From Pelagophyceae sp. CCMP2097 (taxonomy: Eukaryota; Sar; Pelagophyceae): a DNA stretch of 21,174 nt. The notes under the pieces were generated by a model. It was not told the origin of the DNA. It worked only from the letters and a program-made list of their open reading frames with translations, and ran no database searches. The first letter of the stretch is position 1, and every line of letters begins with the position of its first letter. Where the stretch lies: positions 384,576 to 405,749 of the forward strand of contig MU657183.1 in the NCBI GenBank assembly GCA_026770575.1, read 5' to 3'. The translations under genes were made by a program, and so were the position numbers. This document shows positions 514 to 20,531 of this stretch, piece by piece.

Positions 514-646
514 GGACTTTATAAAGTCCCCAGCTTAATTTTTTTAAATGCGTTTTTGACTTTTTCGTTTTCTGGATCGTCATTTAAATCCTTCGAAATC
601 CTTAAGTCGAAAAAACGCATTTTAAAAACATAAACTGGGGACTTTA
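514..646. repeat. Foldback (MITE-like) element
   Basis: The arm at 521-560 is nearly the reverse complement of 606-646 (CTGGGGACTTTA and GTCAAAAACGCATT-type strings pair with few mismatches), leaving a loop of about 45 nt. A perfect 16-bp palindrome, GGACTTTATAAAGTCC, lies at 514-529. It abuts the SINE-like unit. No coding capacity. Confidence 0.55.
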
Positions 647-3418: not shown

Positions 3419-3951
3419 GGGGTTAATGGGATTGCCTTTGCCTTTGCCGCCGAATAGCAGCGCCGCCGGCCCGAGACCCAAAGGGGGACCGACCGGGCGG
3501 CCGAAGCACCGAAGCACCTTGTTACTGGTCACCGGACCGACCCTCCGCCCGTCCCGTCCCGTCCGCCGCGGGCTTGCTGGCAACCGATACCCAGTGGTGA
3601 AATCAAAATTTTCCCAATATACTTGCCGGGTTTTCTGATATCGACCGGAAATTAAAAGCAACATTTTGTTAGGTATTTTTGACCATAATTCGGTATTTTA
3701 TGTTAAATCTGGAGGTAAATGGAGGTAAATGGAGGGTTTTGGGGTATATTCCGGGGTATTTTCGATGAGAGGCGTGCCTGGCGCCAGGATAATTAATTAA
3801 TTAATATTTAATTTTACCTTGGCAAGCTTGCCAACCCTGTTTTGATTTCAGCACTGCCGATACCGCACAAAAGAAGAAATAATTTTAATGACGCTAAGAG
3901 AACAGGGCTTGATAAAACCCTGTTTGGGACCCTTATCGAGCTCACACGTCG
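3419..3951. other. Upstream region of the membrane-protein gene, AT-rich with small repeats
   Basis: No gene identified. It contains GGAGGTAAAT twice in tandem (3711-3730), several GGTATTTT-like strings (3670-3765), an ATTAATTAATTAAT run (3790-3805) and the perfect palindrome TTGGCAAGCTTGCCAA (3819-3834). AACAGGG and AAACCCTGTT pair around 3899-3924. Confidence 0.4.
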
Positions 3952-4244
3952 TTTTGGCGCGGACGCAAATCCTCGAAAGGATTGCACCTGCCTGTTGTGA
4001 GTCGCTGAGCGCCCCTCGACTAACATATCATAACAGGCAGGTGAAAATCTACCGCCTTTCGAGCTGCCGTGTGAGCACTCTGATTCTGTTTCGAGTGTTC
4101 GCAAGTCTTTTGCGGACGCAAACCCCCGATAGGATTCAACCTGCCTGTTATGAGTTGCTGGGCACCCGTCGACGAACATATCATAACGGGCAGGTGCAAA
4201 TCTGCCGGCTTCCAACCGAGGCTGTGCACTCGCTCAGATTTTCT
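3952..4244. repeat. 153-bp tandem duplication carrying matched hairpins
   Basis: Copy A is about 3952-4091 and copy B about 4105-4244, offset by exactly 153 bp. Each encloses an inverted repeat: CACCTGCCTGTT (3985-3996) with AACAGGCAGGTG (4032-4043) in A, and ACCTGCCTGTTATGA (4139-4153) with TCATAACGGGCAGGT (4181-4195) in B. Differences within the stems keep pairing through G-U wobble if the plus strand is transcribed. On the minus strand both copies lie in one open frame (4215-3814) and encode a 51-residue repeat containing ATHNRQV and FRGFASA or YRGFASA. Which of these matters is unknown. Confidence 0.6.
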
Positions 4245-4906
4245 AGCTAAACAACTGCCGTTCACAGCCCCAACGCAGAAGCCCTCCATGTAAAAATATG
4301 AGTGCCGCGCCGAAACGACCATGTTTGCCCCCCCCACTTCTGCATGCACCCCCGGGCCGCACACGCACCCCGCACCAAAAAACACAAAAACCCAGAAAAC
4401 CCAGCCCAAACACCCGCACAAAGCCCATCATTATTTGGAACACGCGCCACGGTTTTAGAAACAAACGGTTTAAACAAACGTCCAACGATCGACACTGTCC
4501 TGGTGGCCCCGAAGATGCAGGCCCAAACGTGTGGAGCCTGCCCAGTCACGATCCAAACGAGACGTGGCTCCTGCTCTGTGCTTGGAAGATCCACCCTAGG
4601 GCCCTGGACGGGGCTGGCCAGATAGGGGCTGGTCCAAAGTCAAATCCAAAGGCCAGAAAGCCTTTTAAGGTCGTTAGCCCACCAAGCGCGCGACCTCTTG
4701 CAAGTACGGGGCGCTCAACACTTTAGCTCTTCGGTCGAGCTCGTCGGGGGCACCCTTTAGGTTGCGATGGCGTAGTCGTGCGCAGACGGCATGTGGATCG
4801 GCCGCGGCGGCGTCGGCCGCGACCGCGCGTACCGGCGAGGATGACGGCGGGCGCGGCCGCGCGGCCGCGCGCGAGGCCCGTTGCCAGGCGCGGAGCGCGC
4901 CGCGCT
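4245..4906. other. Intergenic, no confident gene
   Basis: About 4330-4430 is A/C-rich (AAAACCCAGAAAACCCAG). The minus-strand frame 4952-4674 ends in a protein-like stretch (AKVLSAPYLQEVARLVG) that could be an exon of the coiled-coil gene. Nothing else stands out. Confidence 0.35.
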
Positions 4907-5331
4907 TTAGCCCCCTCCGTCTTCCGTCTCCACTGCGAATACGGCTTCGCACGCCTTGAATGCTCCTCCCGAAATGCCAGTGGCGTGGTCGGCGTTTGCG
5001 GGCGCCGCGGGCTCGTTGGCGAGGTCGACGAGAGAGTGGAGGCCGGCCTCGACCCTGTTCAAGGCGACCAGTTGCATCTTTGCGGCGGCCAGTTGCTTTT
5101 TGGCATCGGCCAGTTGCTCCTCGACAGCGGCCTTTTGCCGCGAAACGTCGGCCAGTTGCTGTTCTATCCTGGTGCGACGCCTAAAACGGCATTCGGCGCG
5201 GTCCGCTCCGCCGCCACCGTCTCCGTCCTCGCCGGTTGCATCGGGGCGCACCTCGCCGCGCGATTCGCCTCGAGTTGCCTGCGCGCGAGTTGCGCGGCCG
5301 TCGCCGGCTGCCCGCCAGCGAAACCTGCCAT
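4907..5331 (-). CDS. Small coiled-coil protein (117 aa), two exons
   Basis: Exon 1 is 5331-5252 and exon 2 is 5180-4907, separated by a 71-nt intron (5181-5251) with donor GTGCGC and acceptor GTTTTAG|G. The joined frame is 354 nt. The protein starts MAGFAGGQPATAAQLARRQLE, then has a heptad-patterned helix (about residues 14-75) rich in Q, A, L and E, with repeats such as EQQLADVSRQKAAVEEQLAD and KKQLAAAKMQL. A non-helical tail ends VETEDGGG. No family is recognised; a structural or adaptor coiled coil is the only inference. The splice is supported because unspliced, the ATG frame stops just past the intron while the coiled-coil frame has no ATG nearby. Downstream in another minus frame, 4674-4952 stays open for 92 codons and its last 40 residues look protein-like, so an alternative 3' exon is possible. 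Confidence 0.68.
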
Positions 5332-5715
5332 GGCCGAGACAGGCCGAGGAACCTAGTCTCCCTATTCCTCCCACATCCCTGGAAGGCCCTGGAAGGGTCC
5401 GCCTGGCCGCCGGAGCTTTGAAGGGGCCCCGGGGCGGGCGTGGCGGCCAAGCCCGTCTGGAGTCCGGAAAACCCACCACTGGCACCGAGGGGGACCTACG
5501 TGTGCGATCGGGGAGAAGCAGCGGAGGCACGACCAGGCCGCCGGGGCGTCGCAGAAGACGCTCGAGACGCCGTTCCGGGGAGCGCCGGCGCGTTCCCGTC
5601 GTTCGTGGAAGCTTCCAGATCGTGGACGAAACCTTTCAAAAACGCAATTTCATAGAGTAATCCGTGAGGGTCCTTTCGGCGACCATTCGAATCTCCCTCG
5701 GCGCTTCGTCTACCG
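5332..5715. promoter_or_regulatory. Shared upstream region of the coiled-coil and thioredoxin-like genes
   Basis: A 384-bp interval between two start codons facing away from each other. No specific promoter element is recognised. GC-rich open frames cross it on both strands but lack credible starts or families. Confidence 0.4.
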
Positions 5716-6379
5716 ATGGCGTTTGGCCGTTTGGCGTCGCTGGTCTCGGCGTTGATAGTCGTCTCGGCACTGGGATCCGCGGAGTCGCCGCAGCTGGACG
5801 TTTCGAACTTTGACGAGCTCGTTAAGGAGTGAGTGGCGCCTTTAAAAGGCGCCTTTTCAATGCCCCCCCCCCCCACGGCCGCTGTAGGGCGCGGCTGCCG
5901 TGGGTCGTCGAGTTTTACTCGGATATGTGCGAAAGTTGCCAAGAGTTTGCGCCGGTTTGGCACGCCTTCGCCGACGAGGTTGAAAAACTCGGAAACATCC
6001 GTCTCGGACGATGCAACGTCGACTCAAAGGCCGGCTCGCAGTAAGTCCGGTTGCAAGAAGCCGCATCAAACGCCGGAGTCCCTCTACAGCCCCCAGGGCC
6101 AGTCCTTCTTCCGGGCCCGATCGGCCCGAGACGGATCCCCGCAAATGACCTCTCCGGCCCCGGTCCCTCTCGGCCGCGCGCGCGCGTTCATTCTTGCGAC
6201 GGTGACGGCTGCGGCGCAGGCTCGCGTCGCAGCTCAAGGTTATGGACGGTGGAATCCCGCAGGTCGTCTTCTTCCCCGCGCCCCACAACAAACCCACATC
6301 CACGCAACTCCGCGGCGAGACGCAACACGAACTGAAATCGTCGCTGAAAAAGCTCTTCCGCGGCGCAAAGGACCTTTAA
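5716..6379 (+). CDS. Secreted thioredoxin-fold protein (PDI-like), three exons
   Basis: Exons 5716-5828, 5888-6040 and 6220-6379 join to 426 nt (141 aa plus stop). Intron 1 (59 nt) is GTGAGT...TGTAG and intron 2 (179 nt) is GTAAGT...GCGCAG; both interrupt codons after the second base and rejoin cleanly. Residues 1-22 form a signal peptide (MAFGRLASLVSALIVVSALG). Then come FDELVKE, PWVVEFYSDMCESCQEFAP with a CxxC redox motif (C52, C55), the NVDSKAGSQ strand region, and GGIPQVVFF with the cis-proline (P102) opposite the active site. It is a single thioredoxin domain with the full strand/helix order. Role inferred: thiol-disulfide exchange in the secretory pathway. The C-terminus is AKDL, not a canonical KDEL retention signal. 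CESC replaces the usual CGHC, so redox behaviour may differ. It starts 384 bp from, and is transcribed away from, the coiled-coil gene. Confidence 0.88.
5829..5887 (+). other. 59-nt intron with perfect hairpin and poly-C tract
   Basis: Intron 1 of the thioredoxin-like gene. Right after the GTGAGT donor lies GGCGCCTTT-A-AAAGGCGCC (5835-5853), a 9-bp stem with a one-base centre. A run of 12 cytosines (5863-5874) serves as the polypyrimidine tract before CTGTAG. Confidence 0.8.
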
Positions 6380-7207
6380 GCGAACGTGTCCCGCAAGCCC
6401 GGCGGGGTATGGATGGTAAAAGTAAGTTTCGTATGAATAATTATCAGTAACTTACTGGGTAAGTTATGATAAATTACTTTTTGAGCCAGAGTAATTTACT
6501 TTAGTCGCCAAAAAACGAAGCCCACAATCTAGATGTAATTATCATCACGACGGGGAGCCCACCACGGGCCATGAACCTCGGAGGCTGTGGAGCTTGAGAA
6601 GAGCGCGCTACTTTCGCAGTCTAATCGGGTCAGTAAAAAATAATTTCTACTTACAATTGTAGAGGAATTGAAGTCCCGAAGAAGCAGAGGCCGACGGGGA
6701 ACGCAAACCGGGCGCGCGCGCCAAGGCCCACGCGGGCCGTGGCGCGGAACATCTCGCAAGGAGCACCGGGGCGGGCGACGAGCTCTCACTATTTGAAATA
6801 TGCCAATAAGAGTGGATTTAAAGACGCCTCTATAAAGTAAGTTACCCTTGCTTAGGGTAAATTATGATAAATTGCGTAATATACAGTAAGTTTCGTAAGA
6901 TAATATTCTTTGCTGAGTATATTATGATAATAATCCTTCCATACGGCGGGGAGCAACGGAATTCCGACGGTGTTCTTGCATCGTGCCAAGTGACCGAGAC
7001 TTGCTTCTTCCGAGCCGACGCCATGTGATGCAGAGGTGCGGTGGCCGCCGAGGAGGAGCGGGCCGAACGTCGAGCAGTGAAGGCTCCGACCTTGATTCAC
7101 TTTCTTGTATTTTAAAATTTAGAAGATTGACGAATGGACTCGGTCCATAATCTTGTATTATAAACTTTAGAAGATTGACGGGCGGCCCTCGGGCATCCTA
7201 AGCCAAT
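6380..7207. repeat. AT-rich repeat zone between the thioredoxin-like and RING/Sel1 genes
   Basis: Related AT-rich units occur at about 6419-6500 and 6836-6940. They share AGTAAGTTTCGTA (6420-6432 and about 6888-6900) and GGGTAA(A/G)TTATGATAAATT. In the first, TAACTTAC-TGG-GTAAGTTA (6448-6466) is a perfect hairpin. The 340 bp between the two blocks has no credible gene. At 7103-7132 and 7151-7180 a 30-bp sequence (TCTTGTATT...AGAAGATTGACG) is duplicated with about three mismatches, with the inverted repeat ATGGAC/GTCCAT between the copies. Confidence 0.5.
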
Positions 7208-7323
7208 TGCACTAGAGTGCAAATCGTTCTCGGTCACAGCAAATACACACCGGCATCAGTAACGGGTGGCCGCGCTGCGCGGCGTTTTCTTCCGACTTCC
7301 AGGACCGCCTCCTCGACGAGCTC

Positions 7324-8154
7324 ATGCCGGAGAAGAAGCCCAAGGAGGCGCCGGCCATCGTCGAGGGCGTTTCGCCGGCGGATGGCGCCAAGGCGCGCTT
7401 ACCGGCAGTGCGGGCGGCCAAGAAGGCCGAGACCAGTGCGCTGAGCGACCTCGGGCCGGACTGGCGCGACACGTGCGCCATCTGCCTCGATCTCCTTCCA
7501 TACGAAGTCGGCGTGACATTTTACTCGTGCTGCTGCAAGAAGATTTGCACGGCATGCTACGAAAAGTGCCAGCACGACGAACGCTGCCCGCTCTGCCGAG
7601 CGCCGGCCCGCACGTCGGACGCCGAGTGGGTGAGCCGGGTGCAGGAGCACGCGGACAAGGGGAACGCCGAGGCGCAGTTCATGCTCGGAGACAAATACTT
7701 TAATGGTGGCATGGGACTCCAGCAGAATTTTAAGCCGGCGTTCGAGTTGTTCGAGCGCTCCGCTACTCTAGGACATGCAATAACTCAGAACACGCTGGGG
7801 AACTGTTACGGTCGAGGGTTCGGCGTCGAGATCGACGACAAGACCGCCGTGCTGTGGTACCGGCGCGCGGCCGAGCAAGGATTTCGCGAGGCCCAATACA
7901 ACCTCGGCGCCATGTTACGGCAAGGGCGTGGCGCAGTCGTACGACGAAGCCGTGAAATGGTTCCGGCTCGCCGCGGCGCAGGGCGTGCCACAAGCGCTCT
8001 TCGACCTCGGCATGTGTTATGGAAAAGGCGACGGCGTGCCGCGGGACCACGAGGCGCTGAGCCTCTACAAGCGCGCGGCGGCCAGGGGCACGCCGACGCG
8101 GCGACGGCGGTCGAGGAGCTCGGGGCGTTCCTCGCGGCGGCGCCCGCCACGTGA
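7324..8154 (+). CDS. RING-type zinc finger plus Sel1-repeat protein, with internal frameshifted segment
   Basis: The continuous frame is 276 aa. A RING-like finger occupies residues 51-91 (C51, C54, then a CCC cluster at 69-71, C75, C78, C88, C91), a Cys-rich variant of the E3 ubiquitin-ligase type. From about residue 100, Sel1/TPR-like helical repeats follow (NAEAQFMLGDKYFNGG, AITQNTLGNCYGRG, EAQYNLGAM), as in scaffold proteins. Between about 7915 and 8088 the Sel1 pattern moves to another frame (AQSYDEAVKWFRLAAAQGV, FDLGMCYGKGDGVP), then returns to the first frame for GHADAATAVEELGAF and the stop. Two small deletions (about -2 near 7915 and -1 near 8088) therefore cancel. Either the protein carries about 57 altered residues, or the gene is decaying, or these are base-calling errors. 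No in-frame ATG lies upstream back to a stop near 7213; an upstream exon is possible. Confidence 0.8.
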   Translation: MPEKKPKEAPAIVEGVSPADGAKARLPAVRAAKKAETSALSDLGPDWRDTCAICLDLLPYEVGVTFYSCCCKKICTACYEKCQHDERCPLCRAPARTSDAEWVSRVQEHADKGNAEAQFMLGDKYFNGGMGLQQNFKPAFELFERSATLGHAITQNTLGNCYGRGFGVEIDDKTAVLWYRRAAEQGFREAQYNLGAMLRQGRGAVVRRSREMVPARRGAGRATSALRPRHVLWKRRRRAAGPRGAEPLQARGGQGHADAATAVEELGAFLAAAPAT

Positions 8155-8482
8155 CGCGGAAGAGCGCCCCAATCCATAATGGGTGATCCCCGATGCGCAT
8201 GGCCGTTGGAGCCGGGAGACTGCACGGGTGCCGCCGAGGCGCAGGGCCCGTCGGCATGCTCTTTTTGGTCGCACCGTAGCACTCTTTTTGGTGGCACCCT
8301 GGCACTCGAAGCCCGGCGACGCGGCAGAGGGGAGCACGAGCCCGGTCGCGCGTCCGCCGTCGGCACGCGCCGGTCGCAAGCTCGGGCCGCCGCCCGCCTC
8401 CGAGGGCGGCCCGTTTCCGGTCCCTACGGTCTCCGAGACACCTCGATCGGCTCACCGGGTCGGCTGAAATCAAAGGATGGCC
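8155..8482. other. Convergent intergenic region
   Basis: It lies between the stop of the RING/Sel1 gene and the stop of the chitin synthase. It contains two tandem copies of a CTCTTTTTGGTCGCACC / CTCTTTTTGGTGGCACC unit (about 8260-8304). Nothing else is recognised. Confidence 0.4.
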
Positions 8483-11400
8483 TTAGGGCGTGCCGAGGAA
8501 AGAGGCGCCGTAGCGCGCGGCGAGCGAGCCTCGCGGGCGGGTTTTCGCTTGGCCGAAGCACTTCTTGGCCTTGGCGTAGACGACGACCACGAGCGCAACG
8601 GCTTTTAAAACGCATTGCGGGGCCAGCGACACGCGCAGAAACCTAATACGGGCTGCAACACGGCCAAAGGGACCCTCCCTGCCTTTTTGTGGGCCGGGTT
8701 GCCCGGCTGTTGATGTTGCACGGGTCGTCTTCCGTGACGGAAGTTGCGTCCATTCGGATAGTCGATTCCACTGGAGACGCGGGCCCGCGCCACTGCGCCG
8801 CACACCTCGCTGACCAAAAGTCGCACGCTTCGCCGCAGCGGTGGCCGCCGACGTCGTCGGCGATGAGGGCCATGGCCATGAGGGGAGCGACGGTGCAGGC
8901 GAGGACCGCGGCGTTGGCGACCTGAGGAAAAGAAGATCTTCTCGCAATCGCACGCGCAACGAGCTTCACGCGCAATTTCACGCAATTTCTCGCAATCTCA
9001 CGCGCAACGAGCCGGGGCTGGTCCAGGGGCCGCGCGAGGGGCCTCGGACGGGCCTTTGGCTGCTCGAAACGCCCCTTTGAGCCCCGACCAAGACGGGGGA
9101 ACACTATTTCCACGAGGGGCCTCGCAAGGACTCGTGCATTGCAGGAGATCGTCCAGGAGGTTCCCACGGCCCGTGCGAGGAGCCTTCCACAAGGTGCCTT
9201 GCAACGGCCAGAGGCCTCTTCGGGGCCCTTGCAAGAGTCTCCCTGGACCGAGGGCAGGGCATCCTGATGCAAGGACCCGTACGAGGGGAGCGCATGAGAG
9301 GCCCGCCCTCCGACCGCACGAGGGGCTGCCAGAGGCCACAGAAAAGGGCCGTACAGAGGGCCCTTGGCCCGTGCGAGGAGCCTTGAAGGGGCCCTGTCAT
9401 GGCCCTTGCAAGGAACCGTGCGAGGCTTGCAAGGACGCTGAAAAGTGGCCTCGCAAGCGACCGCGCAGAGGCCTTGCAATTGGCCGCCAAAGAGCAAGGG
9501 CCCGTCCGTTTGGCAATCCACGGACCTGGGCAAGGAGCCCATATCCCGTACGGGATCCCTCCTCGCCCACATGTGGTCTCTGCATCCCAGAATCCGCCCG
9601 ATTTTGGCGGCTCGGGGACGGCGCGCGTTCCAACGACGCGGTTTGGGACGGCCCACTTTGACGTCTGGTCGTAGAGCCAGCGCGCTTGCGCGAGATCTTC
9701 TTCGTCGTGTTTTGTTTTTTTCGGGCTCTCCTCGGCGCCCTTGTCCGCCTTTTCGAGTGCGTTTTCGTCGACCGCGGCGTCCAAGTCCGTCAGCCCGACG
9801 CCGTACTCGTCGCCGGCGTCCTCGTCGGCTGCGCCGTGGCCTTCTTGCCCGGCGAACTTGAAGAAAAGCCCCTTTCCCGCATCCGACTGAGGCTTCTCAA
9901 TCGCCGACTTTCCAAGCCTCGGCGAGGGCCGCTCCGTATCCGACCGCCTGAGCGTCGGCGAGATCGCGCGGCCGAGGAACCGCGACGATTGCGCGACGCG
10001 GGACGGCGGGCTCTCGGGTGGGGGCTGGAGCGGCGAGGCTTGGCGCTGCTTTTTGGGAGAGGGGAGCAAACCCAACGACCTCAGAACCCGACTCGTCGTA
10101 CTCCGCCGAACGCCGCCCAGCGACGCCGCCCTGAACAACACGTCGATGCCGACCTACGAAATGGGGCGCTCTGGCCTTTGCAGAGGGGACGTATCAAGGA
10201 CCATCTCGACTTTAAGGGGCCGTGCAAGGGTCAGTACAAGGGACCGTACAAGGGACCGTCTTCAGGACTGTCTACAAAAGACCGTATAGAGAGGGTCCGT
10301 CTCGAGGCACCGTCTCGAGGGACCCTAATAGGGACTGTACGAGGGACCGTCAAGACCGTCAAGAGGGGTCGTGAAGTGACCGTAGAGAGGGACCACCGTG
10401 CGAAGGACCGTCTGAGGACCGTCCCGACGTCGTCTCGAGGCCGTCTCGAGGGGGGGCGTATAGAGGGGCCCGTCTCAGGGCCCGTCTCTACCAGGCCCGT
10501 CTCGAGGGCCTATCTCTGAAAACCCGCCTCTCAAAGGCCCGTCTCTCAAAGGCCCGCCGAGACGGGCCCGTCTGCGAAACGGACCCAGGGACCGTCTCGA
10601 GGGGCCCTCGTCGAGGGCCCTCTCGAGGGGATCGTACGAGGGTCCGTCCATAAAAGGGCCGTCGAGACGGGCCCGTCGTCGAGGGCCGTGTATCGAGGAC
10701 CGTACGAGGGATCGTCCATAGAGGGCCCGTCTCGAGGGAAGTTGATACCGGCCTGCCTCGACGGAATTTTCCTCGAGGGACCGTCACTCAAGGGCCCGTC
10801 TTTCCAACAACCATGTCTCAAGGGCCCGCCTCGAGGTCCCTTGCGAAGACACCTCTGGCTCTGTGGAACGCGGCTTCACGCGGCGTGCAGAGGGGCCGCC
10901 TCGAAGGGCCCGCCTCTCAAAGGGTCCCCGTCTCGAGGGGCCCGTCTCGAGGGGCCCGCCTCTCTGTCGGCCCACCTCTCAGTCGGCCCGCCCAGGCCCG
11001 TCTCTAGGCCCCTTGCGGAGAACCCCCCTGGACGCTGGAAATGACGCGGTTGCCCCAGGAGAGGTCGCACACGCGCGCGAGCGAGTAGACCCACAACAGA
11101 TGCGCCGACGGCAGCGCGACGGCAAGGGCGCAGAGGCGCGGGGGCGAGACGAGCTTGCGGAACGTGCTTGGGTCTTCTAATAATGCCGTGATATACCTAG
11201 GAATTCCGAGGTGACCGGGACCACGCACTCTGTAACGCGAACGACGGGCCTTCGTTCCGTCGAAAGGGACCGTTTCAAAGGCCGTCTCGAAGCGCCTTCT
11301 CGAGGCCATTTCGAAGGGCCGACTCGAGGCGCCGTCTCAAAGGGCCGTCTCGAGGGGCCATTTTGAAGGACCGTCTCGAGGGGCCGTTTCGAAGGACCCT

Positions 11401-14400
11401 CTCGAGAAGCTTCCCAAGGGCCTTTTCAAAATGCCTTTTCAAAATGCCTTATCGAGTGGCCTTTTTGAGTGGCCGTCTCGAAAGACCGTCTCGAAGAGCC
11501 GCCTAAAGGCGCCTTCTCGAGGGGCCGACTCGAGAGGCCATTTCTAGGGGGCATCTTGAGGGGCTCTCTCGAGGGGCCGGTTCAAGGTGCCTTCTCGATT
11601 GGCCGTCTCGAGGGGTCTTCTCAAGGGGCCGTAAAGAGGAGCCGTCTAGAGGGGCCCTCTCGAGTGGCCGTCGAAAGGCGTCGTTTCGAGGGGCCGTCTC
11701 GAAAGGCCGACGCAAGGCACCGTTTCGAGGGACATCTCGAGAGGCTTTCTTGAGGGGGCGTTTCAAGGTACCTTCCCGAGTGGCCGTCTCGAGTGGCCTT
11801 CTCGAGGGGCCGTCTCGAGCAGCCGTCTCTAAGCACCGTCTCGAGTGGCAGTCTAAAGGCGCCGTTTCGAGAGGCCGTCTCGAGTGGCCGTCTCGAAGGG
11901 CCGTCTCAAGAGACCGTTTCGAGGGACATCTCGAGAGGCTTTCTCAAGAGGCCTTGTCGAGGCGCCGTCTTGAGAATTTGAGGACCAGTCTCGAGCGTCG
12001 AAGGGTCCATCGAGGGCCATCAAGAGGGTCCGTCTCGGCGTCCCGAAGCGTCGACCACCCGAAGCGTCGACCCCCCTTCAAAAACGTTTCGGGTTTTCAA
12101 AGGCGTGTGTTTCAAAGACGCGCAATTGCCCCAAAAGTCGACGACGCTGCGTTTTACGGCTGGAAAAGTGTCAAAAAGATGGAAGCAAAGAACCACTGCC
12201 CTTCCCCACCCCCGCGGCACCGCGCGCCGCAGCGCCTCCGCGACGTCTGCGAGATTGAGAAAAGCACCGTGACGATGGCGTCGAGAAGAGCGACTAGAGC
12301 AGTTAGAGCGTTAAAGGCGAGAAAAGTACCCCACACGCCGCCGTGGAACGCCACGTCGCGCTTCGAGTCGCCTCGCCTAAGATCGCGGTCCGAAGATCGC
12401 GGTCCGCACCACGTCCCCAAAGCATGGAGCAGGGACGGGTTCGGCTTTGCCCTAAAGACGGGTTTGCCGGGTTTGCCTGTTTTGGTCGACCCGTCTTTGA
12501 GTCGGTCTGGCCGTGGCCCGAACCCGAACCCGACCTCGAGAAGACGGGTCGTTTGACAAACCCGCGACCCGAGAAATCGGCACAAATTGAAGACCCGAAA
12601 ACACCGCCGCCACCAGGTCTTCGACAGTACGGGCCCCTGTGAGGCTTCTTTAGCGGCCACTTGCCTCTGCACGGTCACTTACAAGGCCTCGACGGGCGGC
12701 CTCTTTCAAGGACCCTCGAAGAGCCCTCCGGACGGGCCCCTGCAATGCCTCTTTCTAGGCCACTTGCAAGGCCTCTGCGCGGTCACTTGCAAGGCCTTTT
12801 TCAAGGCCCCTCTCAAGCCCCCGCGCAGGGTTCCTTGCAAGAGACCAGGCCGTTTCGAGTGGCCGTCTCGGTGTCGTCTCGAGGGGCCGTCTCGAGGGGC
12901 CGTCTCGAGGGCCCGTCTCGAGGAGCCGTCTCGAGGAGCCAGAGATCGGGGCAGCGGCGGGTTCGGGTTTGCCCGAAACCCGCGGGTCGGGTTTGCCGGG
13001 TGTTTTGGCCGACTCGTGTACCCGCGGGTTTGGCCCGGACCCGACCCTTTGAAGACGGGTTTGGAATCTCGCCGAACCCGCGACCCTTTGAGTTGTGCAC
13101 ACATTTTCGCAACCCGAAGCTTGATGCACCGTCCCCGCACCACGTCCCCGACTCGAAAAGGCTGTTTGATTCGGGTTAGGTCATCGGGGCGCGGTCCTTG
13201 CTTGACGTGGACGTAGACGAAGGCGGCGGTGAGCATGGAATAGAAAAGGCAAAAGAAAAGTTGCAATCTTTTGGAATAGAGCTCGCAGTCTTCAAACGGC
13301 AGAAAAAGAGCTTCGCCGAGTGAGATGTACGCCCCGCGCGCGATGAGCCCCGTCGTTAAGGCGCGCGCCAATGCGGCAATGAGTTCGACGAGTTGGGCGA
13401 TATTCAAAAAAAAACATGTCGCTATTCTGCTCTTGCTCACCGCCCCGTCCCGCAAGAGCCGCGGGAGCACCGTCCCCAAAATGTAAACCGGCACGGCGGA
13501 GGACGTGTTGATCCATCGGCGGCGCTGCGCGGCGAACTTTTGGAGCTTGGTCTCTGCGTCAAAGTAAAAGTAAGCACATCGTACCAACGCTGTCGTGGCT
13601 TTTTTCGAACCGTCCACGAGGAAAGTGGCATACAAAGTCGCCAATCGATCCTCCCCGAGCTGCAGCTGCATGACGACCATGCTCGACTCCGTCGCCTTGA
13701 CCTAGTTGAGAAAGGGATTTGATTCAATTCGGGTTCTATACGTTGCGTCTTCCTCTCAATCGGGGACCCAAGCTGGTCCAAGCGTGCCTCCGGCGAGGGC
13801 CGTCGACGGGGCCGTCTCGCAAGACCGCCTCTCGCGACCGCCTCGATATCGTCTCGAGGCCGCCTCGGGACCGTCTTCGGGACCGTCTTCGGGACCGCCT
13901 TGACGGCACCGTCTCGAGGCCGTCTTGAGACCGAGGGCTGTCTTCGGGGCCGTCAAAGGGGACGGTCTCGGGACCGCCCCGGGCCGTGCAGACGTCGTCT
14001 GGAAAACTACGGCCGTCCAGAGCCGGTCTTCAGGACGGCGTTGAGGCCATCAAGAGGGCCGTCTCTCGAGAGGACCCGCCTTCTTGGCCGTCTTGGGTCC
14101 GTCTTGAGACCGCATCGATTGCCATCTGAAGGACCCTCTTGAGGAGGGCCATCTCGAGGCCCGTCTCAAGGCCGTCTTTATGAACCCGTCTCGGGCCGTT
14201 GTCAAGCTCGTCGACCATTGTCAAACTCGTCGACCACCCAGGCCTTCTCGAGGGCCGTCCAGAGGCCGTCTCGAGGACCTTCTTGAGGGCCGCCTCGTGG
14301 CTGTCTTCAGGCCGTCTTGTGGCCGTCGAGAAGAACGCCTCGTGGCCGTCTCCGGGACCGTCTCAAGGGCTGTCTTTGGGCCTGAGGACCTTTGGGCCGT

Positions 14401-17400
14401 CTCGAAGCCGTCTCGAGGCCGTCTTGAGACCGACTCGAGGCTGTCTCAATGCCGTCTCGAGGGCCGTCTTGAGGGTCGTATCGAGTGTCGCCTCGCGGCC
14501 GTCGAGAAGTTCGCCTCGTGGCCGTCTCTGGGATCGTCTCAAGGGCCGTCTCAAGGGCTGTCTCAAGGCCGTCTCGAGGGCCGTCTCAAGGACCATCGAA
14601 GACCGCCTCGAGGCCGTCTTTGGGCCGTCTTTGGGCCATCTTTGGGCCGTCTCGAGAACCGTCTCGAGAAGCGTCTCGAGAACCGTCTCGAGAACCGCCT
14701 CGAGACCGTCTCGAGACCATCTCGAGGGCCGTCTGCAAGATGGCCCCTTTTGCAGTCTCGAGGGCCGGTCCGAGGGCGGGTCTCTCTCGGAGAAGCCGTT
14801 TCGCCGCGTCGCGACTCCATTTTTTCAAGGCCCTTTGAGAAAGTTCCCATCGGGCATCTCCAAGCGTCGAAACGACCCCCTTGGACGCCGCTTTCTCGCG
14901 TTCATGTGCTGGAAGAACCCGTCTAAGAAGGCGCGCTGGCCGACTGCGGCGTAGCGCATGCACATGCACGGGCCATGGACCTAGAGAGATGGGTTGCTCC
15001 TCTACGTTTCTCTTGGAGAGATGGGGTGCTCCGAGAGGTTGCTCCTCGAGAGATGGGTCGCTCCTCGAGGGAGCGTCTACACTCCGTGAACGGGGAAGCC
15101 CTCGACAGGGCGGCGTTTGCCTCCGTGATGTCAGTCCACCTCTCCTTATATTTCTAGCACCTCGCTTGTCCCTCTTTGCCGGGTGCCTCCTCTACTCGGA
15201 TCGGGTCTCGAGAGGGCGACCCTTGGACCACGGTGCTTGGCGGCTGACGGGCCGCGGGCCTCGGCTGCCGTGGCAACATCGGCCCTCGCTCCTCGGTCCA
15301 CGTCGCGGGCGTCCCTCTCCGCTCACGTACGCAGGCGCCCCTCGCCGCTCTTAAGGCCATCGAGTGCTGCGACGGTCCGCTTTCTCGGATGGCGCCCTCT
15401 GCCACCACTCGGCTCCGGTCCACGCTTTCTCGGATTCCCCGCGCACCTCTGCCACCACTCGGCTCCGGTCCACGTCCTCGAGGATGCGTTGCGCCTCTCG
15501 CAACTCGACGGCTGCCGCCCGAGCGCCTTTACGGAGGCCCCGTCTCGGCCCAGGGAGAGCGCAGTTGAGCCCAGCCGTACGAGCCCCAGACTGCGCCCGT
15601 CGAGCCCGCCGAGCGGCCGGACCGCCTTTGGGCCACGCCGTCTCCGGCTGGGACCGATCAAGGATCCGTCTCGGGCCGACAAAAGGTCCGTTTGGGGTCC
15701 GTTTGGGGTCCGTTTGGGGTCCGTTTGGGGTCCGTTTGGGGTCCGTCGAGGACCGTAAAAGTCCGTCGAGGACCTTAAAAGTCTTGAGACGACCGTCGAG
15801 GCGTCGCATCGGACCATCGAAGGGTCGTCGAGACCATCGAAGGGGCCGTCTAGGCTGCCGCCAGATAATATCGTAGCACGGGACCGTCGAGGGGCCGCAT
15901 CGGACCGTCAAGGGCCGTAGTCCGTCGAGGACCGTAGTCCGTCGAGGACCGTCGAGGGTCTCTTGAGGGCTGTCCGGAAAGAGGCCGCATGGGACCGTCG
16001 AGGGGCCGCATGGGGCCGTCGAGGGGCCGCATGGGACCGTCGAGGGGCCGCATCGGACCGTCCAGCGCATCGGACCATCGAGGGGCCATCGAGGACCGTA
16101 GGGCCGCCTCTGGCCCGATCCGCTGGGGTGCCGTCGCCCAGATGGGGTCCCGTGGACCTTGTGAGCTCGTCAGGAGCCCGTGAGCCGCGCGGCGGCTCCG
16201 GCTCTGCCACCGACTGGCGGCGACGGGCCTTTCTCCGCGTCTTGACGGCCAGAAGGTGCTGCGTCGTCTCCGAACGTGCATCGGATGTCGCTCACGAGTC
16301 CCCAATCGCGTCGTCTCTAGGCGTCAATCTGCCGCCCGCGACTCTGTGATCCACGACTTTGATTTTGTTCTGGGACCCGGCCGCTCTGGGACCCGGCCGC
16401 TCTGGGGCAACCTCTGGGACCCAGACGGGCCTCTCGGAGCGTCCTCGCTTCGCCGACGGCAAGACGGCGCCGCGTCGTCCACGAGCGTGCATCTCGGATC
16501 ACTCTGCCATCCCTCATCATCGTTTGGGATTCAAACCGAGGGGTTCAAACGGAGCGCAAACGGAGCGATGACAGAGCCGCGAGCGGGCCACGCCGGTGAA
16601 ACCCGGAGCCGCGGCAACGCGCGCGAGGAGGACTCGAGCGTCCCGCCTGCTTTGAGCAGAGGATGCACGCCGGGGGACGACTGTCGTACGCCAAGCAACG
16701 AGGCGCCAAGAGTCGCGAGGTTGGCAGAGTCGCGAGGCTCGATGGACGGCGGGCCACACCCCCGGCGAGCCGCCGCTCACGGCTCGGAGATCAACGTCGC
16801 GACTCTTGGATCACCCTCGCCTTTGCTCTGCGTCCCCCGGCGTCCTTCTCGGATGCCGCTCGCGAGGCAGCTCTCCCCAGCGCCAATATCTGCATCATCG
16901 CGACTGTCCGCGTCGTTTTCAACGGCGGTTTGCCCGCGCGTCGGTTTCTATAAGTTTTTCAAAAAAGAATCTCCAACGCGGCGCTTTTTTACGACGACGA
17001 GCTGGCCGACTGCGTCGCTCACTGCGAGCCAACCTCCATTTTCGTCCTCAAACAAATAATCCTGCACCGCCCGCAGCGCAAACGCGCTCCACGAGTCCGG
17101 CGTGCCCTGCTGCTCCGCCTAGCGGGAGAAAGGGTGAGCGTGGGAGGCGCGTCTCAAGGCCAGGGAAATCGCATATATCGAGAGCAATTCCTTAATAGAA
17201 ACCCGAATGCAAGGCACTCCGGAACACCATGAATCTCAAAATGTCCCGCGCGGCGGCTCAGACGAGGATCACAACGCGGCGGGAAAGGTGGCAACGTCCC
17301 TGTGACAAAGCCCCTGTGACAAAGACCCTGTGACAAAGACCATATGGCAAAGTCCCGTGACACGGACTGCGTGACACGGCCCCTGCGACCGGTCCAAGTG

Positions 17401-20400
17401 ACACGGACTCTGTGCGGCACGGACTCTGTGCGACACGGTCCAAGTGACAAGCCCCGTGACAAAAGTCCCCGTGACCGTGACAAAAGTTCCCGTGACGAGC
17501 CCCTGTGACAAGGTCCCTGTGGAGACGACGTGACGAGGTTCAGTTGATACGGTCCCTACGGCAAGGTCTTTATGACACGTTTCCGTGACACGGCCCCGTG
17601 ACAAGGACCATTGACAAGGCCCTGCGGCAAGACCCTGTGACGAGGTCCAAGTGGCAACGTCCCGCGACGAGGCCTCGCAGCGAGGCCCCGCGACAAGGCC
17701 CCGCGACAAGGTCCCGCGATAAAGCCCCGTGACAAGGTCCCTGAGACAAGGTCTTTGTGATAAGGTCCCTGTTACGAGCCCCCCGTGACAAGCCCCCCGT
17801 GACCCGGCCCAGAGGCAAGGCCCGTGACAGGGTCCCGTGAGACCAACCCTGTGAGACGGACCCACTCGAGACGGCCCCTGTAACACGGTCCCCGTGACAA
17901 GGACCCCGTGTGGCGCGGTCCAAAGTCCCCGTGACAAAGTCCCCGTGACAAAAGTCGCCGTGACACGCCCCTGTGACAAAGTCCCGTGACAACAACCCCG
18001 TGACACGGTCCCCGTGACACGGACCCTGTGACACCAACCCTGTGACAAGGACCCTGTGCGACACGGTCAAGGGACAAAGTCCCGCGACAAAAATCGCCGT
18101 GACACGTCCCTGTGACAAGGTTCCTGTAAAAGAGTCCCTATGACAATGTCCCTGTGACAAGGTCCCTGCGGTGACCAGGCCCGCGTGACAAGTCCCGCGG
18201 CAAGGTCCCAAGACAAGGTCCCCGTTACATGTTCCCAGGACGAGGTTCTTCTACCAAGTCCCGTGACAAGGACCCGTGACAAGGACCCGTGACAAGGACC
18301 CGTGACAAGGACCCTGTGCAGAGGTCCCGTGACAAGGTTCCTACGGCAAGGTCCCTCGGTTCTTCTTGCAAAGGTCCCTGTGACAAGAACCCCGTGACAA
18401 GGTCCCTTAGACAAGGACCGTGGCACGGCCCCGTAACAAGAACGCTGTGGCAAGGTCCCTGTGACGACGTCGCCGTGCCCTTGTAACAAAAGTCCCGTGA
18501 CGACGTCCCGTGACATGGTCCCTGACGACATCCCTGAGGTCCCTGTGAGACAAGGTCCCTGAGACAAGGCATCCCATACGGCATTGGCCCCATGTGACAT
18601 GGGTTGCATCCCATCATGCAATGTCGGTGGCTCAGCTCCATCGGCAAGGTCCGACGCGGCCGCCGAGCGGCACGTCCAGAGGGAAAGGGGCCGTGGAGAG
18701 GGCCCTCGAGAGAGACCGCTTCGAGGCACGCGTCAAAAGCCCCCCCTCTGCCGTCGCTCCGTCCGCGTCGGCCATCGTTTAGAGGGACCGTCTCGAGGGG
18801 CCTTGGAGAGGGACCGTGGATTGTCCAGGGGGGGCGCCTCGAGGAACCGTCTCCAGGGACCGCCTCGAGCTAGAGGGACCGCCCGGCGAGGCCGTTTCGA
18901 GGGGCCGTTTCGAGAGAGTCGTCTCGAGGGACCTCCCAGAGGAACCGTCCCAAAGGGCTTGGTAGAGAAGCCTTGGAGAGGGACCGTCGACGAAACCGGC
19001 TCGAGGGACTGCCGACTACTCGCGACGGTCCGGGTTTTCCAGACGTGGGAAACCCTCTGGCGCCGCCTAGGACAGTCATGCCGCGTTTCCTTCCCGGAGG
19101 ACGGTCCCGGCGACGGTCCGCCGAACGGTCCCGGAGCCACGGTCTCCAGGACCGGAGACGGTCCGTCGCCGGTCCCGGAGATGGTCCCGGAGACGGTCAA
19201 TAGGCGGTCCCGGAGACGGTCTCGGAGACGGGCCCGTAGGCAGTCTTCTGCGGCAGTCGACTGTCCCAACAACGGTCCGTTGGCGGCCCCGGAAACGGTC
19301 CCGGAGACGGTCCGTCGGCGGTCCCGGAAACGGTCCCGGAGACGGTCCGTCGGCGGTCCCGAAGATGGTCCCGGAGACGGTCCCAGAGACAGCCCTGAAG
19401 ACGGTCCGTCGGTGGTCTGTCGACTGTCCAGGCAGACGAGTCCCGGAGACGGTCAATAGGCGGTCCCGGAGACGGGCCAGGAGACGGTCCTCTGCAGCCA
19501 TCGACGGTTCAGAGGCGTTCCCTCTGCAGTAGTCTCGCACGAGGCTTCCTTGTCCATAGTGCTCTTGAGCTCCAAGAGTTGCTCGACCAAGGGTGTGAGC
19601 CCGAAGTGGGATGGGCACGTGACGGTCCGGGTTTTCCGGACGTGCGAATGGCGCCGCCCAAGACTGTCATGCCGCGCTTCCTCCCAGTCGCCGCGTTGCA
19701 GTCCGGGTGCAGCCGCCTGCGCGTCGGAGAGCGGGGTACCGCGCGGCCGAAGTAAGGATCATCAGCAAATGAGATGCGACGCACATGTGGTTCACGAGCT
19801 CGTCGATGCAGTCTTCATGAAATAAAGTGCCGCAGTCCGTCATCAGCGCAAATTCGCACTCGACGTCGGCGCAGAATGCGGCGAGGAACCACTCGATGGA
19901 ATTTGGTTTCCTATGCAGTTCCTATACGTTTCCTAGAGGTCCTAGAGTACGCCTCACCGTCGATTAGTTCTTTTTAGCACAAGCGAGACGGCGCCGCCGC
20001 CGGCCGTCATGACCGCAGTCTGGCCCGAGCCTAGAGCGGGGAAGGTGGGCGTGGGTGCGTGATGGCGCGGGTCCTTGCTGCCAGAGCTGTTTGGCGCCTT
20101 GAACAGACGCCTTTTACAGACGCCGAAAAGGCACGCCCAAAGGCGGCGTCGTCCACGGCCGCTTCCGCCCCAAACGTCGCGCGGATCCAGGTCCGTACCG
20201 AGGCGTGCATCACCGCGGCGCCGTCGATTACGACCACTAGAGCCATTGCGCCAGAGTCTAAATGCGGTTGCAGAGAAGAGATAGTTTTCTGAACACATGC
20301 TGCATCCTCGTCGTACACCGTCACGAGCGCCGCCACCGTCGCCTTGCGCGCGAATCGGAAGTACCTTCGGCCCACGGCGCAACGGGACTCCGTCCAGATC

Positions 20401-20531
20401 TCGACAGACGAACGCAGTGGTGCAGGGGGTGGCGCCACGCCCATAGACGACGCAGTCGACGCCACATCCGCGTAGGACCGCGAGTCGATTCGCTGCGCCA
20501 TTTGCGCGCCGCCGGCCCCCGGCGGCGCCAT
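8483..20531 (-). CDS. CHS: Chitin synthase (family 2 glycosyltransferase), 12 exons
   Basis: Predicted chitin synthase: it polymerises UDP-N-acetylglucosamine into chitin at a membrane and extrudes the chain. Model, in transcript order: 20531-20135, 20030-19958, 19910-19785, 19716-19665, 17118-17023, 14980-14900, 13701-13202, 12376-12158, 11196-11046, 10153-9650, 8921-8806, 8642-8483. These sum to 2475 nt, giving 824 aa plus stop, and phase is kept at all 11 joins. Motifs in family order: TVYDED (71-76), VVVIDG (99-104), DCGT (182-185), HGPC (250-253), LGEDR (290-294), QRRRW (334-338), DLSWGNR (559-565). About eight hydrophobic segments lie between 343 and 795. The usual glycosyltransferase residues are present and no stop interrupts any exon. 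The ATG at 20531 is chosen because protein-like composition starts there; the frame stays open to an ATG at 20681, so the start is less certain than the rest. All of this was read by eye. Family assignment is strong. Individual donor sites of introns 1, 4, 6, 9 and 10 are the weak points. Confidence 0.86.
8643..8805 (-). other. CHS intron 11 (163 nt), ordinary
   Basis: Donor AG|GTGTGC and acceptor CGTATTAG|GTTTCT join exon 11 (ending CDFWSA) to exon 12 (starting FLRVSLAPQ) in phase. No tandem array is visible. It serves as an uninflated comparison for the larger introns of the same gene. Confidence 0.65.
8922..9649 (-). repeat. CHS intron 10 (728 nt), GAGGGGCCTTGCAAGG array
   Basis: About 9020-9490 holds degenerate units around GAGGGGCCTTGCAAGG. 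Nearer the acceptor, 8937-9013 is built from CGCAATTTCACGCAATTTC-like strings, with CACGCGCAACGAGC present twice. The acceptor is strong (CTTTTCCTCAG|GTCGCC). The donor GCC|GTCCCA is weak, and again GTC stands at both junctions. Confidence 0.7.
10154..11045 (-). repeat. CHS intron 9 (892 nt), GGGCCCGTCTCGAGGG array
   Basis: About 10195-10995 is an array of units around GGGCCCGTCTCGAGGG, with an earlier variant GGACCGTACAAGG (about 10215-10270). It is related to but distinct from the intron 8 consensus. Exon 9 ends CGC|GTCATT and exon 10 starts after TTCGTAG|GTCGGC, so GTC occurs at both junctions and the exact boundary is ambiguous by up to three bases. Confidence 0.7.
11197..12157 (-). repeat. 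CHS intron 8 (961 nt), GGCCGTCTCGAGGGG array
   Basis: About 11265-12040 is a near-continuous array of 14-17 nt units around GGCCGTCTCGAGGGG, with variants GGCCTTCTCGAG and GGCCGTTTCGAAG. The array stops before both splice sites. Donor GTAAAA and acceptor TTCCTAG|GTA share the trinucleotide GTA. Confidence 0.74.
12377..13201 (-). repeat. CHS intron 7 (825 nt), two diverged blocks flanking an array
   Basis: Two blocks of about 185 bp in the same orientation (about 12430-12620 and 12950-13165) share CGGGTTTGCCGGGT, ACCCGACC and CGAACCCGCGACCC-type strings. Between them lies a short array of CACTTGCAAGGCCTC and GGCCGTCTCGAGG units. Next to the acceptor a 14-bp unit, AAGATCGCGGTCCG, is present twice. 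Donor is GC type (CAA|GCAAGG), acceptor GATCTTAG|GC. Confidence 0.7.
13702..14899 (-). repeat. CHS intron 6 (1198 nt), GGCCGTCTCGAGG-type array
   Basis: About 13790-14770 is an array of degenerate units around GGCCGTCTCGAGG. It shows higher-order structure: a block containing GTCGAGAAGAACGCCTCGTG near 14335 recurs with few changes near 14501, an offset of about 166 bp. A 17-bp sequence, GTCAAGCTCGTCGACCA, is duplicated at about 14201-14240. The donor is a GC type (AAC|GCGAGA); the acceptor is TCAACTAG|GT. Confidence 0.72.
14981..17022 (-). repeat. CHS intron 5 (2042 nt) with several short tandem families
   Basis: Near the acceptor, 14984-15080 repeats units like GAGAGATGGGTTGCTCCTC. A 28-bp sequence at 15397-15424 recurs exactly at 15447-15474. 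A perfect 12-bp unit (GGTCCGTTTGGG) is repeated about five times at 15685-15745. Units like GAGGGGCCGCATGGGACCGTC repeat about four times around 15984-16065. About 16100-16950 is less ordered GC-rich sequence in which I see no exon. Donor GTGAGC is canonical; acceptor is CTCTCTAG|GT. Confidence 0.72.
17119..19664 (-). repeat. CHS intron 4 (2546 nt) filled with three tandem arrays
   Basis: Three different arrays fill this intron. About 17295-18600 (plus strand) repeats a roughly 15-nt unit like GTCCCTGTGACAAGG. About 18665-19010 repeats units like GGGACCGTCTCGAGG. About 19100-19500 repeats units like GGTCCCGGAGACGGTC. A partial copy of the exon 4/donor region sits at about 19024-19098. Long open frames cross the arrays because unit lengths are near multiples of three, but the peptides are pure low-complexity repeats and are not taken as genes. 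Donor is ACA|GTCTTG and acceptor CGCTAG|G. Confidence 0.75.
19024..19098 (-). repeat. Partial copy of the exon 4 end and donor inside intron 4
   Basis: On the minus strand this region reads GGAAGGAAACGCGGCATGAC and continues into GTCC, AGGCGGCGCC and GGAAAACCCGGACCGTC, matching the true exon 4 end at about 19622-19690 with roughly a dozen changes and a small indel. It retains the coding string GRKRGMT followed by a GTC donor-like site. Confidence 0.7.
19665..20531 (-). other. CHS: CHS exons 1-4: N-terminal half of the catalytic domain
   Basis: Exon 1 (20531-20135) carries a low-complexity head, then RYFRF, TVYDED and VVVIDG, the nucleotide-sugar binding start of the domain. Exon 2 (20030-19958) ends in LVLKRTNR. 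Exon 3 (19910-19785) continues with KPNSIEWF and the DCGT metal/sugar-binding motif. Exon 4 (19716-19665) is only 52 nt and encodes RLHPDC...ATGRKRGMT, the counterpart of the family's TGRQRVMT stretch. Introns: 20031-20134 (donor GTGCCT, tentative), 19911-19957 (47 nt, GTGAGG...ATAG), 19717-19784 (68 nt, GTGCGT...GCAG). Codons split across joins resolve to sensible residues (R133, R157, M199). Confidence 0.82.

Follow-up and report, generated by a model that had tools for sequence, protein, structure and literature searches.

A gene of chitin-synthase ancestry, split into twelve exons and overlooked by annotation, in the pelagophyte CCMP2097

The sea-ice/Arctic pelagophyte CCMP2097 (Pelagophyceae sp.) appears to carry a chitin-synthase-like gene on the minus strand of the window (the whole stretch of 21,174 nucleotides analysed here), running from 20531 to 8483. 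The best explanation, to which we assign a probability of about 0.58, is a nuclear, spliced and at least partly transcribed gene, whose product would be a membrane GT2 protein homologous to chitin synthases with an altered gate. The evidence below supports a single gene, split and of chitin-synthase ancestry, that annotation overlooked.

Exon structure and introns

Twelve exons join in phase into 2520 nt, that is 839 codons plus the stop codon; all acceptors are AG, and each donor is GT or GC (table 1). The ends of the gene, an ATG at 20531 and a stop codon at 8485-8483, coincide exactly with those of the initial annotation, whose twelve in-phase exons also stand; its 824 codons do not. It had further noted very short exons, and three are indeed below 100 nt (52, 73 and 81 nt). 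Additional in-frame ATGs occur 5' of the modelled start, at 20681 and 20606, and so the start codon is uncertain. The 3' exons were placed by the transcript protein P0001, and exons 4 and 5 by the relatives P0003 and P0004. For exon 4, the 52-nt exon was the best of 403 candidates with GT or GC donors; it scores 47, whereas 100 dinucleotide-shuffled versions of the region never exceeded 41. An earlier model of 697 aa, without exons 4, 11 and 12 and with other ends for exons 5, 7, 8 and 10, was superseded.

Table 1. Exons of the chitin-synthase-like gene and its long introns, in positions of the window.
Feature	Position	Strand	Length (nt)	Content	Basis and remarks
Exon 1	20135..20531	-	397	YDED, D103 of IDG; donor GT	Profile 34-107; start uncertain
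Exon 2	19958..20030	-	73	KRTNR; phase 1 in, 2 out	Without RNA
Exon 3	19785..19910	-	126	KPNSIEWF, TDCGT (D182)	Profile 150-194, 48.6 bits
Exon 4	19665..19716	-	52	RLHPDCNAATGRKRGMT	Profile 195-210, E 1.3 alone; without RNA
Exon 5	16993..17118	-	126	AEQQG, QDYLF (QHFEY equivalent)	Profile 211-254, E 0.97 alone; without RNA
Exon 6	14900..14980	-	81	Gate-lock loop VVHGP, His260 codon 14977-14975; donor GC	
Exon 7	13202..13701	-	500	LGEDR (D303) and QRRRW; start of the putative membrane segments; donor GC	Profile 282-401, 53.2 bits; 3' end present in P0001
Exon 8	12158..12376	-	219	Hydrophobic segments	Identical to P0001
Exon 9	11046..11196	-	151	DLSWGNR	P0001 and P0002
Exon 10	9650..10153	-	504	Hydrophilic tail, Pro/Ser/charged-rich	P0001
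Exon 11	8791..8921	-	131	Hydrophobic segment; donor GC	P0001
Exon 12	8483..8642	-	160	Includes stop codon	P0001
Intron 4	17119..19664	-	2546	45% tandem arrays of at least 100 bp	
Intron 5	14981..16992	-	2012	A number of short arrays; those of at least 100 bp make up 5%	
Intron 6	13702..14899	-	1198	50% tandem arrays; 11-12-nt unit AGGCCGTCTCG	
Intron 7	12377..13201	-	825	Donor GC; a single 93-bp array (13-nt unit), no array reaching 100 bp	
Intron 8	11197..12157	-	961	73% tandem arrays; 13-nt unit TCGAGGGGCCGTC	
Intron 9	10154..11045	-	892	35% tandem arrays	

Tandem arrays were called by TRF, with a minimum of 100 bp and periods of 9-80. They account for 24% of the gene span (2871 of 12049 bp) and do not touch any exon, and thus the description of the span as 12 kb of tandem repeats was overstated. 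Since a 24-base repeat pattern has 195 exact sites across the genome, the idea of a repeat specific to this gene was dropped. The long introns, several of them with arrays of this genome-wide minisatellite family, would be removed by splicing. Of seven long frames at two other repeat-array loci (L018 and L021), examined for arrays lying within genes, one matched Pfam, at L021:2929-4305 (Kelch, BTB).

Transcript, deposited-protein and homology support

Junctions 6-7 to 11-12 are established by RNA or a deposited model, and the others by homology, phase and splice sites. The MMETSP transcript protein P0001 corresponds to residues 441-839 and is identical at 399 of 399. A check by RNA had been proposed for all eleven junctions; P0001 supports five of them (7-8 to 11-12), while for junctions 1-2 to 5-6 no transcript protein was among the three matches to the first 452 residues. 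Junction 1-2, without RNA, lies within a weakly conserved region. Junction 6-7 is supported by the deposited model P0005 (M885DRAFT_110908), which, like P0002 (M885DRAFT_110899), is a piece of the chitin-synthase-like gene. P0005 runs into intron 7 and P0002 into introns 8 and 10, bearing out the expectation that gene finders would report fragments. Long repeat-bearing introns and GC donors can hide a conserved gene in the CCMP2097 genome, at least in this one case. Since both deposited models retrieved cover only pieces of the gene, counts of carbohydrate-active enzymes, given as 260 in the accessible text of PMC9133084, may miss such genes. The same paper describes 28 transcriptomes.

Despite its label as complete, P0001 begins at Met441, within exon 7. 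This could mean that the locus holds two transcription units, residues 441-839 being encoded by a 3' gene distinct from the 5' one; the deposited models P0002 and P0005 are likewise separate, and a search with the 5' half returned no transcript protein. Such an arrangement seems very unlikely to us. The profile of relatives described below crosses Met441 as one domain, the start of P0001 falls inside a hydrophobic segment (431-451), and a break in transcript assembly would look alike.

The profile was built from five relatives (P0003, P0004, P0006, P0007 and P0008), the CCMP2097 sequence being left out. It matches the joined protein at 239 bits in a single domain, which spans residues 54-581 and positions 34-540 of the 709 in the profile, against 5.7 bits for the best of 2000 shuffles, so the match is not due to chance. 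Among six-frame fragments of the window (at least 15 aa, n=555) there were seven matches at E <=10, of which six are on the minus strand, in profile order and within exons 1, 3, 4, 5, 7 and 9; exon 2 gave no separate match. The seventh (minus strand, 6317-6285, E 8.2) was taken as noise. Exons 3, 4 and 5 cover the profile gaplessly one after another. Of the profile check proposed at the outset, exon order and residues fit the relatives, but Pfam PF03142 itself reaches 17.3 bits on the joined protein, below its 27-bit cut-off; PF01644 scores 29.6 against a cut-off of 25 bits, but over residues 149-199 only.

On its own, the joined protein retrieves from the PDB the chitin synthase 7wjm, which we take to be PsChs1 of Phytophthora sojae, at E 1.1e-6, where the incomplete draft gave 8.7e-4. 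A profile of five sequences including that of CCMP2097 retrieves six sequences from the PDB, every one a chitin synthase (E 9.2e-49 to 2.5e-42). NCBIfam, whose families are bacterial and archaeal, gave no match, nor did Rfam. All 11 of the protein's matches in the CCMP2097 genome fall in this locus, and no second copy was seen. Whole-genome Pfam searches with PF03142 and PF01644 found nothing (0 and 1 first-pass candidates), the likely reason being that exons of this length escape the first pass; PF01644 was silent in control genomes too, so neither search demonstrates absence.

Catalytic motifs and the channel gate

Judged from its sequence, the protein is homologous to chitin synthases and retains their catalytic residues. 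The motifs named in the initial annotation follow one another in the order it gave: TVYDED, TDCGT (181-185), LGEDR (300-304), QRRRW (344-348) and DLSWGNR (569-575). The D,D,D,Q(Q/R)XRW signature with EDR is present as D103, D182, E302-D303-R304 and Q344RRRW348, and the SWG motif as S571, W572 and G573. In PsChs1, mutating the residues that match D103, D182, D303, QRRRW and W572 abolishes or strongly reduces activity, according to the accessible text of PMC9556331. In a hydropathy scan for membrane-spanning segments, ten windows of 19 residues exceed a Kyte-Doolittle value of 1.6; some of them overlap, and one (94-112) falls within the catalytic domain.

The gate departs from this pattern. The gate-lock loop VLPGA reads VVHGP, with His260 at a position that holds proline in 8/8 compared sequences and in 7wjm, and the channel-entrance QHFEY (Glu432, Tyr433) reads QDYLF (residues 235-239). 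In a direct alignment with 7wjm, His260 falls on Pro454, and the E-Y of QHFEY is matched by L238-F239. The five relatives have no Glu at the Glu position of QHFEY either, but D followed by Y or F. The residue numbers of 7wjm agree with those in the accessible text of PMC9556331.

An error of assembly or modelling, with a proline in the real gene, appears a highly improbable source of the gate change. The His and Pro codons (CAT and CCT) are one base apart, and neither exon 5 nor the loop codon of exon 6 is covered by a transcript; however, the alignment across the exon 5-6 junction is ungapped to P0006, P0003 and P0004, with one gap in P0007, and many further family positions are also changed. 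Among 66 positions invariant in the five relatives, 20 are changed in the CCMP2097 protein (two of these being gaps), the same count for each relative giving 3-10 of 49-56.

According to the accessible text of PMC9556331, every chitin synthase bears the gate-lock proline as its signature, and the change P454A abolishes PsChs1 activity; His260 could therefore mean a dead enzyme. The gene would then be a decaying or non-catalytic homologue, transcribed with its synthase activity lost. Besides the lost equivalents of Pro454, Glu432 and Tyr433, the 20 of 66 altered positions and the second longest end branch of nine in our tree would suit this scenario, which we nevertheless hold to be unlikely: the frame is open across 12 exons with catalytic residues kept, 28 of the 34 columns that do not vary among the eight other sequences are retained, and the transcript protein equals the genome over its whole length.

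Conversely, His260 might substitute for the proline in an ordinary chitin synthase, the product being chitin for the cell covering. The intact catalytic motifs, the exclusive match to chitin synthases among solved structures at E <0.001 and GH18 domains at two places in the genome agree with this. We consider it improbable, given the proline signature and the effect of its change to Ala; moreover, chitin in pelagophytes was not found in the titles and abstract openings of the papers listed, one of the listings giving 15 of 143, and pelagophyte walls are cited with alginate and cellulose in the accessible text of PMC9133084. What stands of the initial claim of a chitin synthase gene is a split gene of that ancestry, whose product may or may not be a working chitin synthase. 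On its predicted sequence the protein is a chitin-synthase-related GT2 rather than a proven chitin synthase. Because the gate-lock proline is His and 20 of 66 invariant positions are changed, chitin or a related glycan made by CCMP2097, which had been presented as implied, is something we infer.

Under our preferred explanation, a GT2 protein with an altered gate, the enzyme would bind a UDP-sugar, most likely UDP-GlcNAc, use D303 as base to extend a beta-linked chain by that sugar, and pass the chain through its membrane helices to the cell covering. The changed channel mouth, with His replacing the gate-lock Pro and L-F the E-Y of QHFEY, would probably make chain handling, and perhaps chain length or sugar, unlike that of ordinary chitin synthases. 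Rather unlikely is the further proposal that chitin-synthase catalysis with a rebuilt gate yields a different, short or non-translocated polymer, perhaps a building block of the perforated theca by which, in the accessible text of PMC12168098, pelagophytes are defined as an algal class; a word search of that text found nothing on theca chemistry. For the pelagophyte cell covering, the gene provides a candidate enzyme. If active, the CCMP2097 enzyme would break the rule that chitin synthases carry a gate-lock proline, and would be a natural test of the control of chain export by the gate-lock loop.

Relatives and known systems

A tree of nine proteins, with the CCMP2097 protein cut to residues 1-600, gave it the second longest end branch and does not place it firmly among the five relatives, including the viral P0006. 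CCMP2097 itself is put closest to an Ankylochrysis clade by PMC9756366. The tree program warned that long branches may join falsely and of odd composition. With these warnings and the unsettled placement, transfer to or from giant viruses has no support either way. Scans of viral contigs gave 31, 0 and 109 pattern-matching stretches, none confirmed as a relative, and AlphaFold on the relatives (P0006 with A3) gave a mean pLDDT of 44, too low for use.

P0006, from Hyperionvirus sp. and listed in UniRef as chitin synthase, shows 28% identity over 78% of the N-terminal query and has TDCGT, GRQRIMTAEQQG, QRRRW and DLSWGNR in common with the CCMP2097 protein, but this virus gene (739 aa) keeps IPGPC, with proline, and INGT. 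The uncharacterised P0003, P0004, P0007 and P0008 likewise have TDCGT, QRRRW and WGNR, whereas the proline is kept in 4/4. Fungal P0009-P0011, which have chitin-synthase Pfam domains (P0009 being named chitin synthase), share EDR, QRRRW and SWG; in contrast, they have DADT for DCGT and WGE or WGQ for WGN, and a long branch with 100/100 support separates them. With PsChs1 (7wjm) the CCMP2097 protein shares the GT2 core, namely D,D,D,Q(Q/R)XRW, EDR and SWG, but PsChs1 has VLPGA and QHFEY where the CCMP2097 protein has VVHGP and QDYLF, and it carries N-terminal MIT, SP and LG subdomains; the profile match of the CCMP2097 protein starts near residue 54. In having a non-proline in the gate loop, the CCMP2097 protein resembles, by description in the accessible text of PMC9556331, the bacterial cellulose synthase BcsA, where the residue is Cys.

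A twelve-exon gene on the minus strand

With exon borders set by reading all three minus frames, the candidate gene resolves into 12 exons (2520 nt) encoding 839 amino acids plus a stop codon. Its outer ends coincide exactly with those of the initial annotation, whose twelve exons joined in phase are borne out; the 824 codons claimed there become 840 with the stop, presumably because different exon ends were used. AG is found at 11 of 11 acceptors, while donors are GT in eight cases and GC in three (after exons 6, 7 and 11). Introns 1, 2, 3 and 11 are short (104, 47, 68 and 148 nt), and introns 4-10 range from 728 to 2546 nt. Given two additional in-frame ATGs (table), a longer N-terminus is possible.

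Coordinates of features (window positions unless a contig is named)
Feature	Position	Strand	Remarks
Candidate gene	20531-8483	minus	
Additional in-frame ATGs	20606; 20681	minus	
13-base minisatellite family	10400-16100		CCGTCTCGAGGNG...; also genome-wide
Neighbouring frame	7216-8151	plus	Sel1 repeats, 64.5 bits; weak RING finger, 21.4 bits (cut-off 27)
Seventh six-frame match	6317-6285	minus	E 8.2
Thioredoxin/PDI-like reading	5717-6380	plus	WVVEFYSDMCESCQEF; apparent exons, judged by eye
Frame in the same region	5833-6447		no Pfam match at E 0.01
Direct repeat, 104 bases	647-750; 1001-1104		91% identical, spacing 354
GH18 domains	C484:15238-16065; C113:147631-148608		three matches; C484 is a 28-kb contig

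The joined protein was compared with a profile made, without the CCMP2097 protein, from five relatives, namely the Hyperionvirus protein P0006 and the uncharacterised P0003, P0004, P0007 and P0008. It matches as a single domain (residues 54-581, 237 bits; whole sequence, 239 bits), the best of 2000 shuffled controls reaching 5.7 bits. When 555 stop-to-stop fragments from six frames were run against this profile at E up to 10, seven matched and none lay on the plus strand. Six fall on the minus strand and follow the order of the profile, coming from exons 1, 3, 4, 5, 7 and 9; those from exons 3, 4 and 5 abut exactly, at profile positions 150-194, 195-210 and 211-254, with neither gap nor overlap; the seventh is taken as noise. 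Exons 4 and 5 are individually weak (E about 1), and their weight lies in correct place and phase, not in their own scores. In a scoring that drew on two relatives and on the opening letters of exon 5, the 52-nt exon 4 obtained 47 among 403 candidates, followed by longer versions sharing its acceptor (46) and the next unrelated candidate (30), and none of 100 dinucleotide shuffles reached this value (best 41). The direct match to the chitin synthase PDB 7wjm moved from E 8.7e-4 with an incomplete draft of the gene to 1.1e-6 with the completed model.

The initial annotation had proposed spliced RNA across the eleven junctions as a check, which is obtained in part. The MMETSP transcript protein P0001 (399 aa) is identical to model residues 441-839 and so supports the five junctions from 7-8 to 11-12, two of which use a GC donor. 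This identity over its full 399 residues suggests that it comes from the same alga; MMETSP transcriptomes exist for CCMP2097 (PMC9133084). P0001 is labelled complete, though it begins at Met441, inside exon 7, so either the transcript is cut there or it represents a separate unit. A protein search with the first 452 residues, with candidates limited to 0.55-1.75 query lengths and shorter fragments therefore invisible, gave three matches (P0005, P0006 and P0007) and no transcript protein. For junctions 1-2 to 5-6 the evidence thus comes from reading phase, splice sites and homology, and junction 1-2, sitting in a poorly conserved stretch, is the weakest. Two deposited models named Pelagophyceae sp. 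CCMP2097 show the fragmentation that had been predicted: P0005 (M885DRAFT_110908) contains the exon 6-7 junction and then runs into intron 7, and P0002 (M885DRAFT_110899) starts within intron 8, contains junction 9-10 and runs into intron 10. The gene is real, and has been missed and misannotated.

Intronic arrays

TRF arrays (at least 100 bp, period 9-80) cover 2871 bp of the gene span (12,049 bp) without touching an exon, and are absent from the remainder of the window. Twenty comparison stretches of ten kb, taken at round positions from contigs C1 to C20 (four of them wholly N), contain 4159 bp of such arrays in 155,494 known bases (2.7%). The gene is array-rich but not built of arrays, and the 12 kb of tandem repeats originally described is an overstatement. 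By a looser measure, 9-mers recurring within 300 bases make up 11.5% of the gene span versus 1.5% of window 1-8482, and 1.2 to 7.0% of the 16 readable comparison stretches. GAGACGG occurs 3, 19, 5 and 16 times in sense in introns 5, 6, 7 and 8 versus 0 in antisense, and 12 versus 2 times in intron 9; in intron 4 the bias is reversed (2 versus 12). A 24-base pattern of the 13-base minisatellite unit has 195 exact sites in the genome, 85 on the forward and 110 on the reverse strand, with none for the reversed control.

Family placement and genomic context

Among Pfam families, PF01644 scores 29.6 bits (cut-off 25; residues 149-199), and PF13632 (21.7 bits) falls below its cut-off of 27. The profile match foreseen by the initial annotation holds for the five-relative profile and, over one short stretch, for PF01644, but not for PF03142 (17.3 bits, cut-off 27). 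Besides CCMP2097's own proteins, protein searches matched the five relatives and three fungal proteins (P0009-P0011), each search scoring about 8000 candidates, so that absence of further relatives carries little meaning. Against PDB, a profile including the CCMP2097 protein found, at a threshold of E 0.001, six distinct sequences, every one a chitin synthase; with the joined protein alone and a limit of E 1 there were seven matches, the five strongest to chitin synthases and the other two to SAS-6 entries (E 0.09 and 0.44), taken as noise. A nine-protein tree, flagged by its program for long branches and odd composition, separates the fungal proteins from the rest with full support, and leaves the CCMP2097 protein unplaced among the five relatives on the second longest end branch (2.49). 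P0003, itself chitin-synthase-like, has a C-terminal part matching the LHFPL-like PF10242 (29.8 bits, cut-off 25.2).

No second copy was seen in exon-by-exon genome searches, which score top candidates only and which a distant intron-rich paralogue could escape: all 11 matches of the protein itself, and those of P0004, P0006 and P0008, lie in the gene's locus. These searches covered 66.2 Mb in 638 contigs, another or partial assembly relative to the published 85.8 Mbp (62% GC, 27% repeats, 19,402 gene models; PMC9756366); window GC is 0.62.

A perforated theca is a defining trait of pelagophytes (PMC12168098), in a main text where the words chitin, cellulose and polysaccharide are absent, and alginate and cellulose are cited for their walls in PMC9133084. 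The word chitin is absent from the main texts of PMC9133084 and PMC9756366, and no report of chitin in pelagophytes, CCMP2097 and Aureococcus included, was found in titles and abstract beginnings of the open-licence papers listed, 15 of 143 in the largest search. Given its GH18 (chitinase-type) domains, the genome may encode chitin-active enzymes.

A conserved core with an altered gate

The working parts of the Phytophthora sojae chitin synthase PsChs1 are defined in PMC9556331. Relative to these, the CCMP2097 protein retains D103, D182 (TDCGT), E302-D303-R304, Q344RRRW348 and W572, in agreement with the diagnostic motifs initially listed. The conserved core would bind a UDP-sugar and use D303 as the base for its transfer, and hydrophobic segments from residue 378 on would build an export channel.

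The gate loop VLPGA reads VVHGP and QHFEY reads QDYLF, and in the 7wjm alignment His260 falls directly on Pro454 and QDYLF on QHFEY. Where QHFEY has E-Y, the five relatives carry D-Y or D-F, and the gate-lock proline is present in all eight sequences compared with the CCMP2097 protein. General rapid divergence is also possible, since the changes extend beyond the gate: of the 66 columns that the five relatives share without exception, the protein breaks 20, two as gaps, against 3 to 10 of 49 to 56 for each relative tested in the same way, and it keeps 28 of 34 invariant in all eight other sequences. The altered gate would be expected to change how the chain is held or exported.

The gene is a divergent relative of chitin synthases. 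The proposed chitin synthase thus stands as to family kinship and catalytic motifs, but we do not class it as such, because the proline held to define these enzymes is replaced by His260. In PsChs1, replacing Glu432 or Tyr433 with alanine causes a strong loss of activity, and Pro454, called the signature of all chitin synthases, abolishes it when changed to alanine (PMC9556331).
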